The translations under genes and the position numbers were made by a program. Below the pieces are notes generated by a model. It was not told the DNA's origin. It did no database searches and worked only from the letters and a program-made list of their open reading frames with translations. A stretch of DNA of 64,000 nucleotides from Pseudomonadota bacterium (GTDB lineage Bacteria > Pseudomonadota > Gammaproteobacteria > Steroidobacterales > Steroidobacteraceae). This document shows positions 9,360-14,121 of this stretch, one piece after another. The stretch lies in contig JANXQL010000156.1 of assembly GCA_025356815.1 (NCBI GenBank), positions 1-64,000 on the forward strand, written 5' to 3'. Every line of letters begins with the position of its first letter. The stretch's first letter is position 1.

Positions 9360-10442
9360 CTATCGACTCGCGAGCGACTCGTCTGCGAAGCGTACGAAGG
9401 CGACGACCAGCGAGATCACCACCGGGCCCAGGAACATGCCCACCATGCCGAACGCGGCCAGCCCGCCGAGCACGCCGACGAATACCGCAAGCGTCGGCAC
9501 CTCGGTGCGGCCCGCGATCAGCAGAGGCCTGAGCAGGTTGTCCGCCAGTCCCACGATCAGTGCGCCCCACAGCAGCAGGAACGTGCCGGCGGCCGGATGA
9601 TCGGTGGCGTACAGCCACGCCGCGCCCGGTCCCCAGACGAAGGCGGTGCCGCCGATCGGCAGCACCGAGACGATCGCGCCGAGCACGCCGAACACGATCG
9701 GCGACGGCAGGCCGGCGAGCGCGAAGCCGATCGCGAGCGACACACCCTGCACCATCGAGGTGACCAGCGTGCCGAACACCACCGCACGCGTGACCTCGCC
9801 GACGTGGTGCATCAGCCGCTGCTTGCGACGACCGCCGACCGGGATCATGCCCAGTACCGCCAGCAGCATCCTGCGGCCGTCGCGCAGGAAGAAGAACAGC
9901 AGGAACAACGTCATCAAGAAGCTGATGATCGTGCTGAACGCGCCGAAGAACGCGCGGCCACCGAAGGCCCCGAGCAGTCGCAGCAGCTGCTCGGCCCCGG
10001 CTACCGACCAGCCGCGCAGCTGGTCGATGGTGACCGGCAGGTGGTGCTGGAGCCAGACGAGCGCGCGCTGCGCGACCGGCAGCGCCACCAGGTCGTCGAT
10101 GCTGCCGATCTGCAGCCGCGTGACCAGGCTCTGCAGGGAGACGACCAGCAGCGCGGCCTGCGCCGCGAACGCAGCGCCGACCGCCATCAGTGGGCCGGTC
10201 AGCATCACGAAGCACAGCGCCGTCAGCAGGCCCGCGATCAGGCCCTGGCGCGACTTGAGCCGACGCTCGAGGCGCAGCTGCAACGGATGCATCAGGTAGG
10301 CGATCACGATCGCCCAGGCGAGCGGGGCGAGGAAGGGCTGGATGACCTTGTACAGGAGGACCGCGAGCAGGGCAGTCACACAGAGGCCGAACACCCGGCG
10401 GTAGAATGACAGCGCGGCTTCGTGCTCGTTGGCGGGGTCCAT
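9360..10442 (-). CDS. AI-2E family transporter (UPF0118 membrane protein)
   Basis: ORF with multiple TM segments typical of the family; ATG at 10442. Confidence 0.85.
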   Translation of the reverse strand: MDPANEHEAALSFYRRVFGLCVTALLAVLLYKVIQPFLAPLAWAIVIAYLMHPLQLRLERRLKSRQGLIAGLLTALCFVMLTGPLMAVGAAFAAQAALLVVSLQSLVTRLQIGSIDDLVALPVAQRALVWLQHHLPVTIDQLRGWSVAGAEQLLRLLGAFGGRAFFGAFSTIISFLMTLFLLFFFLRDGRRMLLAVLGMIPVGGRRKQRLMHHVGEVTRAVVFGTLVTSMVQGVSLAIGFALAGLPSPIVFGVLGAIVSVLPIGGTAFVWGPGAAWLYATDHPAAGTFLLLWGALIVGLADNLLRPLLIAGRTEVPTLAVFVGVLGGLAAFGMVGMFLGPVVISLVVAFVRFADESLASR

Positions 10443-10471
10443 AGGCAATTCTAGTCCCAGAGGCGGTACCA

Positions 10472-12292
10472 GTGTCGAAGCAGTCCCTGCAGTCGGTCCG
10501 AAAGGTCCTGGTGATCAGCTGCCGCAGCTCCTCGGTCAAGGTGGCGGTCGTGGACGTGGCGGGCGTGCATCGACACGACGTGATGGTGGACGGTCTGGGC
10601 GGGCTCGCCCAACTGTGGGTCGAGGGCGTCGCGCGGCCGGTCGACGTGACCGGTGTCGGCGCCGCCGTGCATCTGATCCTGGACGAGCTCGCCGCCCGCG
10701 GCGTGCAGGGACCGGACCTCGAGGCCGTCGGCCACCGCATCGTGCACGGCGGCGACGCCTACAGCGTACCGGTGCTTGCCGACGCCACGGTCGAGGCGGC
10801 GATCGCCGCCCTCGGCCGGCTCGTGCCGCTGCACAATCCGGCCTCGGTCGAGGGCCTGCAGGTGGCGCGTGCGCGTCTGCCGGCGCTGCCGCATGTCGCC
10901 GTGTTCGACACCGCCTTCCATGCGACGTTGCCGCGACGGGCGCGCGAGTACGCGCTGCCGCGCGAGCTCAGCGAGCGCCTCGGCCTGCGCCGCTACGGCT
11001 TCCATGGCCTGAGCCACGACGCCGCGACCGCCGCCGCTGCGAGCTGGCTCGGCGCCGACCGCGCCAGCCTGCGCATTGTCAGCTGCCACCTCGGTGCCGG
11101 CGCGAGCGTCACCGCGGTGGAGTACGGCCGCAGCGTCGATACCAGCATGGGCATGACCCCGCTCGAGGGGCTGGTCATGGCGACCCGCGCCGGCGACCTC
11201 GACGCCGGCGTGCTGCTCGAGCTCTTGCGCGCCGGCCATACGCTCGACGATCTCGACCGGCTGCTGCACCACGACGCGGGCATGCTCGGGCTGACCGGCA
11301 CTGCCGACATGCGCGCGATCGAGCGCCGCGCACGCGAGGGCGATGCCGAGTGCCGGCTGGCGCTGCAGATCTACGCGCACCGGGTCCAGAAGTACATCGG
11401 CGCCGCCGCGGCCGCGATGGGCGGCGCCGACGCAATCGTGTTCACCGGCGGCGTGGGGGAGCACAGTGCGACGCTGCGCCACCGGATCGTCGAGCGACTG
11501 GGTTTTCTCGGCGCGCAGATCGACGAGGATCGCAACCGCGCCGCCGTGGTGGACGCCGCGATCCGCGTGGCGCAGGTGTCGGTGGAGCACGGTCGCTGCC
11601 CGGTGCTGGTCGTGGCGGGCAACGTCGATGGCGAGATCGCCGCCGCTGCGCGGCGCGTGGTCGAGGGCGTGCACGGCGCCGCAAGCGCAGCGCCGATCCC
11701 GATTGCAGTGTCCGCCCGGCACGTGCACCTGACCCGCGCCAGCGTCGAGCGGCTGTTCGGACCCGGACACCGGCTCAGCGTCGCGCGGATGATCTCCCAG
11801 CCGGGGCAGTTCGCGGCGGTGGAGACGGTGGCGCTGGTCGGACCCGCCGGACGGCTCGAGCAGGTCCGGGTGGTCGGTCCCGAGCGCTCGGCAGACCAGG
11901 TCGAGATTTCGCGCACCGACGAGTTCGTGCTCGGCGTCGACGCGCCGGTGCGCGAGTCGGGCGACCTTGCGCGCACCCCGGGCGTGAGGATCGAGGGGCC
12001 GGCGGGGACCGTGGTGATGACCCAGGGCGTGATCTGCGCGCTGCGCCACATCCACATGCGGCCCATCGACGCCGCCGTGTTCGGGGTCGTCGACGGCGAC
12101 CGGGTGGACGTGCGCGTCGGCGAGGGCGGGCGTGAGCTCACCTTCGGTGACGTCAAGGTGCGCGTCCGGGAGGACTTCCGGCTCGAGATGCACGTCGATA
12201 CCGACGAGGCCAACGCCGCCGGCATCGGCACCGGCGCCACCGGCGTGCTGGAGGGGGCAGACCGCCACGCCCGCATCGTCACCCGCCGCTGA
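10472..12292 (+). CDS. Fusion protein: acetate/propionate kinase domain + PduL-type phosphotransacylase domain
   Basis: N-terminal AckA motifs (VGHRIVHGG, FDTAFHATLP, RYGFHGLSHD, SCHLGAGASV, FTGGVGEHS) followed in the same ORF by PduL motifs (PIAVSARHVHLTR, DQVEISRTDEFVLG, CALRHIHM, EMHVDTDEANAA). Confidence 0.92.
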   Translation: MSKQSLQSVRKVLVISCRSSSVKVAVVDVAGVHRHDVMVDGLGGLAQLWVEGVARPVDVTGVGAAVHLILDELAARGVQGPDLEAVGHRIVHGGDAYSVPVLADATVEAAIAALGRLVPLHNPASVEGLQVARARLPALPHVAVFDTAFHATLPRRAREYALPRELSERLGLRRYGFHGLSHDAATAAAASWLGADRASLRIVSCHLGAGASVTAVEYGRSVDTSMGMTPLEGLVMATRAGDLDAGVLLELLRAGHTLDDLDRLLHHDAGMLGLTGTADMRAIERRAREGDAECRLALQIYAHRVQKYIGAAAAAMGGADAIVFTGGVGEHSATLRHRIVERLGFLGAQIDEDRNRAAVVDAAIRVAQVSVEHGRCPVLVVAGNVDGEIAAAARRVVEGVHGAASAAPIPIAVSARHVHLTRASVERLFGPGHRLSVARMISQPGQFAAVETVALVGPAGRLEQVRVVGPERSADQVEISRTDEFVLGVDAPVRESGDLARTPGVRIEGPAGTVVMTQGVICALRHIHMRPIDAAVFGVVDGDRVDVRVGEGGRELTFGDVKVRVREDFRLEMHVDTDEANAAGIGTGATGVLEGADRHARIVTRR

Positions 12293-12466
12293 TGCGCCGC
12301 GCTTGTATCAACCTGACGAAGTTCACGAGGCCGACTGGCCGCGGCAGCTCGAAAGACTTGAGCCCGAAGCGGTCCCCCAGCCGTGCACGGCGAGGCTTGC
12401 CATGACCATCCCCCTGATCGACCGGCTCATCGACGCGCCCGCCGCCCGGCGGCGGGGGCTGGCCGC

Positions 12467-13237
12467 TTGAGCCTGCATCGCGACAGCCAAGGCCTTGGCC
12501 CCGACGTCGCCCTGCTGCACGGCTGGGGACTGCACGGCGGTATCTTCGACTCGCTCGCCGCGCACCTGTCCGCGAGTCGGCGCGTGCACGTGCCGGACCT
12601 GCCCGGCCACGGCCGTTCGCCGTGGGCGAAGGGCGCCGCCGACCTCGAGGGCATGGCGCGGCTGGTGGCCGCCCACGTGCCACAGCGCTGCGCGCTGGTC
12701 GGCTGGTCGCTGGGCGGCATGGTCGCGGCGCGGATCGCGACGCTGTACCCCGAGCGCGTGTCCAGCCTCGTGCTGATCGCGACCGGGCCTTGCGGTGCGC
12801 GCCGTCGCGACTGGCCACACGGCCCGGAGGACTCGCTGCTGGCGGGACTCGCGCAGCGGCTCGAGCGCGACTGGAAGGCCACCGTGCAGGAGTTTCTCGG
12901 GCTCGAGGTACGTGGTGACGACAACCCACTGGCGACGCTGCGCGAGCTCAAGCGCTGTGTGCAGGACGGCGGCGCGCCCAGCACGCTCGCGCTCGCCGCG
13001 GGGCTCGCGATGCTGCGTGGCGTGGACCTGCGGCCGGAGCTGCCCGCGATCCGCACCCGCACGCTGGTCATCGCCGGCGAGTACGATCGACTCACGCCGC
13101 CGGCCGCGGCGCGGGCCCTCGCCGAGCTCGTGCCGGGCGCCCGCTTCGAGCAGGTGGCGCGCGCGGCGCACGCGCCGTTCCTGTCGCATCGCGAGCAGGT
13201 GGAGCGACTGATCGGGGACTTCCTCGCCGGGGAATGA
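12467..13237 (+). CDS. bioH: Pimeloyl-[acyl-carrier protein] methyl ester esterase
   Basis: alpha/beta hydrolase: VALLHGWGLHGGIFDSLAAHL, GWSLGGMVA, HAPFLSHREQV; TTG start likely; followed immediately by bioC. Confidence 0.85.
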   Translation: MSLHRDSQGLGPDVALLHGWGLHGGIFDSLAAHLSASRRVHVPDLPGHGRSPWAKGAADLEGMARLVAAHVPQRCALVGWSLGGMVAARIATLYPERVSSLVLIATGPCGARRRDWPHGPEDSLLAGLAQRLERDWKATVQEFLGLEVRGDDNPLATLRELKRCVQDGGAPSTLALAAGLAMLRGVDLRPELPAIRTRTLVIAGEYDRLTPPAAARALAELVPGARFEQVARAAHAPFLSHREQVERLIGDFLAGE

Positions 13238-14121
13238 TGGCCGAGCTGCTTCGTCTTGATCCGCGCGCCGTCAGGCGCGCCTTCGACCGCGCCGCGTCGT
13301 CCGTGGACGACTGCGACGTGGTCGGCGCGCGCGCGCGCGCGCAGATGCTGTCCCGCCTCGAGGGCCTGCCACTGTCGCCCACGGTCGTGCTCGACCTGGC
13401 TTGCGGCACCGGCCAGGCGACGCGGGCGCTGCGCGATCGCTACCGGCGCGCCCGGGTGCTCGCGCTGGACTTGTCGACACCGATGCTCGCGGCGGCCGGC
13501 CGCCGCGCGTCGTGGCGGCGCAGCTTCGACCTCATTCGCGCCGATCCATGCCGGCTGCCGCTGCGGGACGGGTCGGTCGACCTTGTGTTCGCGAACCTGG
13601 CGTTGCCCTGGGCCACGGATCCCGACGGCATGCTCGCCGAGGTGCGCCGGGTGCTGCGCCCGCGCGGCTACCTGTCGTTCTCGGCGTTCGGTCCCGATAC
13701 GCTGCGCGAGCTGCGCGAGGCCTGGGCCGCCGCGGACGAGGCGCCGCACGTGCACCGCTTCGCCGACATGCATGACGTGGGCGATGCGCTGGTGCGGGGG
13801 GGCTTCGTCGGTCCGGTGATGGACGTGGAGCGACTGACGGTCACCTATGGCTCGCTCGAGGGGCTGTATCGCGACCTGCGCGCGGTGGGGGGTGGGAACG
13901 CGCTCGAGGCGCGTCGCCGCACGCTGACCGGCGCCGGCCGGCGGCGCTGTGCCGAGGCGTACTACGAGGCACGGCGCGACGCCGACGGCCGGTTGCCTGC
14001 GACCTGCGAGCTGGTCTACGGCCAGGCCTGGTGCCCGGATGGCGGCGCCGCGGCGCGCGGCGGGCGCGAGACGGTGGTGCCGCTGACGCGCCTCGGCCGG
14101 CGCGGCGCGCCGTCGGCGTGA
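13234..14121 (+). CDS. bioC: Malonyl-ACP O-methyltransferase
   Basis: SAM-MTase motif VLDLACGTGQATRALRDRY; RVLRPRGYLSFSAFGPDTLRELREAW; overlaps bioH end. Confidence 0.88.
   Translation: MMAELLRLDPRAVRRAFDRAASSVDDCDVVGARARAQMLSRLEGLPLSPTVVLDLACGTGQATRALRDRYRRARVLALDLSTPMLAAAGRRASWRRSFDLIRADPCRLPLRDGSVDLVFANLALPWATDPDGMLAEVRRVLRPRGYLSFSAFGPDTLRELREAWAAADEAPHVHRFADMHDVGDALVRGGFVGPVMDVERLTVTYGSLEGLYRDLRAVGGGNALEARRRTLTGAGRRRCAEAYYEARRDADGRLPATCELVYGQAWCPDGGAAARGGRETVVPLTRLGRRGAPSA

Follow-up and report, generated by a model that had tools for sequence, protein, structure and literature searches.

Does a protein that joins an acetate kinase (AckA) to a PduL-type phosphotransacylase still carry out both reactions? 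The question is raised by a gene in the 64,000-nucleotide stretch of Steroidobacteraceae DNA analysed here (the window). Profile searches call the window protein bifunctional, and a flux model would credit it with forming ATP as an acetate kinase; should that half be dead, the protein would yield acetyl-CoA rather than ATP and acetate. On balance, we think it fairly probable that the window fusion is a PduL-type phosphotransacetylase fed by Xsc or phosphoketolase and burdened with a redundant, decaying kinase half.

Architecture of the fusion gene

The gene lies at 10472-12292 on the forward strand, beginning with GTG at 10472 and ending in a stop codon at 12292, with no internal stop, which confirms the single uninterrupted AckA-PduL frame of 606 aa that an earlier note on this DNA had described. 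Almost full-length domain matches cover its two halves: PF00871 at aa 11-390 (10502-11641; E 3.7e-108, 362 bits against a cut-off of 22) and PF06130 at aa 410-585 (11699-12226; E 3.6e-71, 239 bits against a cut-off of 25), the latter bearing out by profile what the note had read in the C-terminus. Curated NCBIfam models agree, with TIGR00016 scoring 347.5 bits on the AckA half (cut-off 293.4) and NF011652 scoring 243.6 bits on the PduL half (cut-off 209), and the full-length matches to PF00871 and TIGR00016 above curated cut-offs place the kinase half in the acetate kinase family. GC content by codon position is coding-like in both halves (0.80/0.49/0.91 in the kinase half; 0.78/0.48/0.93 in the PduL half). 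AckA thus precedes PduL in a single frame, the AckA-PduL architecture of Erbilgin et al. 2016, and because other genomes carry homologues fused over their full length, an assembly join is ruled out.

Between the domains runs a linker of about aa 391-409 (11642-11698, forward strand). An AlphaFold model of the fusion (mean pLDDT 84, pTM 0.65) contains two confident domains and a linker that falls below 50 at aa 401-405; it predicts no fixed interface between AckA and PduL, whose relative placement is uncertain. The gene is flanked by a divergent membrane-protein ORF, a putative permease (9360-10448, reverse strand), and on the other side by forward-strand ORFs for a bioH-like alpha/beta hydrolase (12383-13237) and a bioC-like methyltransferase (13234-14121), both named from sequence reading; all three are syntenic flanks of the fusion slot.

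Residue losses in the kinase half

Kinase residues are numbered here after M. thermophila AckA (MtACK), using a reference sequence that matches the 1g99 alignment over residues 83-399. The AckA motifs reported by the earlier note held up as regards the domain but not the catalytic set, which is incomplete. Codon 16 (10517-10519) reads AGC and places Ser at Asn7, where the relatives compared carry AAC or AAT, and codons 385-386 (11624-11629) place Val-Asp at Glu384-Glu385. Both Asn7 and Glu384 are changed in the window only, being kept in 20/20 and 21/21, respectively, of the other Steroidobacteraceae fusions readable at those columns. Glu384 we take to be metal-binding and essential. Alignment and codons also place Arg (codon 18, CGC, 10523-10525) at Gly9 of the PHOSPHATE1 loop, as they do the Val-Asp pair. 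Ala replaces Asn211 at codon 209 (11096-11098), a change common to several congeneric fusions, and Gly239 at codon 237 (11180-11182), likewise seen in congeners; the weakening of the kinase may therefore have begun earlier. Asn7 is listed as a hallmark residue important for MtACK activity, which N211A cuts about six-fold and G239A about 14-fold (PMC4390882).

Judged by these residues, the kinase half has probably lost all or much of its activity, and with N7 and E384 gone, channelling between the two sites, which the earlier note had proposed along with the coupling of both steps, is unlikely in this protein. It is worth noting that the kinase half is not a plain pseudogene: it is full-length and open, with coding-like codon usage and its 362-bit match to PF00871, and it retains S10-S12, K14, R91, H123, D148, H180 and R241. 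Residual or altered kinase activity may persist, or this half may have taken on a regulatory role.

The PduL half presents a different picture. The His/Glu motifs previously read there are matched by a full set of metal-ligand positions (H417, H419, E478, H526, H528 and H574), kept together with the phosphate-contact R472 in alignment with 5cuo and other fusions. The alignment with 5cuo, itself a PduL, extends over 175 aa (E 2.2e-47). Combining a full-length domain above cut-off with the dimetal ligands and the phosphate-contact Arg, the phosphotransacylase half looks intact and is predicted to be active. Of the positions that do not vary among 18 other fusions, 94 fall in the kinase half, where the window protein departs at 8, and 60 in the PduL half, where it departs at 0; as one relative (G128) differs at six such kinase positions, none of them catalytic, the count of eight is not itself exceptional, and what matters is the identity of the changed residues.

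Rate tests did not add to this. A codon branch model, in our own two-ratio implementation, gave an omega of 0.23 for the window kinase half against a background of 0.07 (p 0.001), and was discarded because intact control branches (G134, G094 and G020) give similar values. Protein relative rates against the pair G134/G094 (1.65 for the kinase half of the window protein, 0.73 for the PduL half) were likewise dropped, there being no difference against G057/G128 and a like pattern on the control branch G057. With no signal of relaxed selection or half-specific acceleration of the kinase half surviving controls, the case rests on which residues have changed, on losses in relatives and on gene inventory.

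The same slot in congeneric genomes

The chromosomal slot, bounded by uvrD/membrane protein on one side and bioH-bioC-coxB-coxA on the other, was compared across congeneric genomes. Four of them have an intact kinase half: G057, G128, and G094 and G134, the last two with flanking genes matched on only one side of the slot. Elsewhere it has been damaged or removed. The G122 kinase half is full-length yet heavily substituted, including S10R, H123Q and F179A; in G072 an in-frame deletion leaves the initial stretch of AckA fused to PduL; in G105 PduL stands alone, its start 111 bp from the flanking gene, as opposed to 1245 bp, and its GTG preceded by a GGAGG motif. G114, the nearest relative in the set by its flanking genes (trkA 95% and coxA 97% similar to those of the window), holds a pseudogene of which only fragments are left (aa 1-134, 155-190 and 544-606). 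This series shows that in the genus it is the kinase half that tends to disappear, by several different routes.

Such losses weaken channelling as a general reason for keeping the fusion. They also make of the genus a natural series at one locus (intact, point-eroded, deleted, pseudogene), with which the reasons for the making and breaking of such fusions become directly testable.

The remnant in G114 lies at L149:9259-9805. Outside the syntenic slot, G083 carries a stand-alone PduL (L050:8852-9802), among whose neighbours response-regulator-like, cytochrome-oxidase-like and universal-stress-like ORFs can be picked out by eye. Neither G023 nor G041 has a match above cut-off for AckA, PduL or Xsc.

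Metabolic setting of the genome

Whole-genome searches of the window genome, which is 95% complete, found no Pta domain, no second PduL and no PF00936 microcompartment shell gene, extending to the genome the earlier note's remark that no shell gene was visible. The fusion is the sole phosphotransacetylase candidate found. On contig C40 an Xsc exceeding its curated cut-off is preceded by a MocR-type regulator gene and followed directly by a separate acetate kinase, which retains N7 and E384; a phosphoketolase lies on C194. Within the genus, Xsc is above cut-off in 13 of 15 genomes, including every one that bears PduL, and the second AckA directly follows xsc also in G105, G114 and G033, and sits within the xsc cluster in G122, G083 and G152. 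The fusion can adjoin a phosphoketolase in other genera, as at L015 (profile-tested) and L039 (from sequence reading plus an XFP match at G003:C1). This inventory and these neighbourhoods point to acetyl phosphate from Xsc or phosphoketolase as the likely substrate of the fusion. A phosphate acetyltransferase that takes acetyl phosphate formed by Xsc to acetyl-CoA has been described (PMC10356861).

Strong PF01515 matches in relatives were set aside as evidence of Pta, as most of them fall in frames about 780-1060 aa long. These long frames are presumably malic enzymes with a PTA-like domain (MaeB). In G085 a PTA-type domain directly precedes a stand-alone acetate kinase (G085:C24:135875-137710), perhaps forming a second acetyl phosphate system there. 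Near three fusions of other genera (L014, L017 and L039), FixL/FixJ-like two-component and universal-stress-like ORFs were noticed by eye, a setting that might point to low-oxygen regulation.

Fusions and kinase decay beyond the genus

AckA-PduL fusions are not rare. Searching for the architecture across genomes, as the earlier note had suggested, recovered same-length fusions in about 22 of the 200 genomes sampled from Steroidobacteraceae and related ones, mostly in MAGs, in several phyla, under the record labels Myxococcota, Syntrophaceae, Granulosicoccaceae, Azonexaceae, Zoogloea, Magnetominusculus, Anaerolineae, Spirochaetes and Bacteroidota orders. A candidate from Caldalkalibacillus (L081) was rejected, a stop codon separating its two genes.

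Three-domain proteins of about 770 aa, in which a cNMP-binding domain (PF00027) precedes AckA and PduL, occur in Rhodocyclales (L077:5266-7572, L079:4877-7198 and L083:2582-4861), Magnetominusculus (L078:5497-7824) and Anaerolineae (L080:5464-7818). Their kinase loops are damaged and their PduL motifs kept, the three Rhodocyclales genomes sharing in the kinase a change of GSSSLK to G[IV][TS]QIH together with G239P and G331D. A canonical paralogue (L161) is present as well in Magnetominusculus, and a canonical AckA that stands alone (L158) in the Anaerolineae genome. That fusion kinase halves repeatedly became pseudokinases in unrelated bacteria, in the window's genus, Rhodocyclales, Nitrospirota and Chloroflexota, and where kept would serve as non-catalytic sensors of nucleotide or acyl-phosphate controlling PduL, is a broader proposal that we regard as doubtful.

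Competing explanations

Under the explanation we favour, the fusion would descend from a bifunctional AckA-PduL able to send acetyl phosphate either to acetyl-CoA through PduL or to acetate and ATP through AckA, and the window protein would now work only as a PduL-type phosphotransacetylase. Acetyl phosphate arising from Xsc during taurine breakdown and from phosphoketolase would pass to acetyl-CoA by way of the fusion in a genome without Pta, while the kinase half would decay as redundant, its reaction being open to the separate acetate kinase beside xsc. Of 10 genomes with a degraded fusion, 8 have another AckA domain, compared with 5 of the 30 whose fusion is intact (Fisher p 5.6e-4), a hand count assembled post hoc that ignores shared ancestry and mixes kinds of degradation. 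Two genomes speak against redundancy as the cause: G072 has no other AckA and yet lost its kinase half, and G033 keeps both the fusion kinase and another AckA.

Three other explanations must be considered. The view of the earlier note, that the protein is fully bifunctional and hands acetyl phosphate from one active half to the other, could draw on the full length of both domains, on the many kinase residues kept (S10-S12, K14, R91, H123, D148, H180, R241) and on the channelling already proposed for such fusions in the passage on them in Erbilgin et al. 2016 (PMC4784909). The loss of N7 and E384 in the window alone among the family's fusions, the kinase halves lost by relatives and a model with a low-confidence linker, a pTM of 0.65 and no fixed interface predicted nevertheless make it improbable. 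We consider it similarly improbable that the kinase half is a non-catalytic regulator which binds nucleotide, acetate or acetyl phosphate and so controls or scaffolds PduL: that half is wholly or largely missing from G105 and G072, which retain PduL, and the gene is lost in the nearest relative, G114, even though the half is full-length in the window and kinase-damaging changes are common to three Rhodocyclales fusions beside a cNMP-binding domain. The fragments that G114 holds in the same slot are consistent with a gene on its way out, with both halves dispensable and the window copy a recent pseudogene whose frame is still open by chance. With zero invariant PduL positions changed, 606 codons open and no other phosphotransacetylase candidate found in the genome, this is very unlikely.

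Comparison with known systems

Searches of the open-access literature turned up nothing on kinase-dead fusions, on PduL with Xsc or on cNMP-AckA-PduL proteins. The AckA-PduL architecture itself was described by Erbilgin et al. 2016 (PMC4784909), whose passage on fusions places PF06130 in multidomain proteins, most of them annotated as Acks, notes that these have no encapsulation peptides, and suggests that PduL may stand in for Pta there and that fusion may aid substrate channelling. Neither the architecture nor the channelling idea is therefore new, and the damage to the kinase half is the added finding: the window protein shares the joining of Ack to PF06130 but has a kinase half that is probably inactive, and loss of kinase residues is not discussed in that passage.

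Among solved structures, the first half is closest in sequence to acetate kinases and the second to PduL 5cuo. With the PduL phosphate propanoyltransferase (PDB 5cuo/5cup) the window protein has its metal-ligand motifs in common; it differs in being fused to AckA, and in belonging to a genome that, lacking PF00936, shows none of the microcompartment association that is typical of PduL, though not required. Homology to the M. thermophila acetate kinase (PDB 1g99) extends over the whole domain, with R91, H123, D148, H180 and R241 kept and N7, G9, N211, G239, E384 and E385 changed. The cNMP-AckA-PduL proteins (L077-L080, L083) share with the window protein the AckA-PduL core, the damaged kinase and the kept PduL motifs, whereas their additional N-terminal PF00027 domain has no counterpart in it. 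Finally, taurine dissimilation in Roseovarius sp. 217 reportedly proceeds via acetate kinase, according to an account attributed to Baldock in 2007. Acetyl phosphate from Xsc is there handled by a kinase encoded, unlike the fusion, in a separate gene, and the window genome has an xsc-ackA pair of its own.
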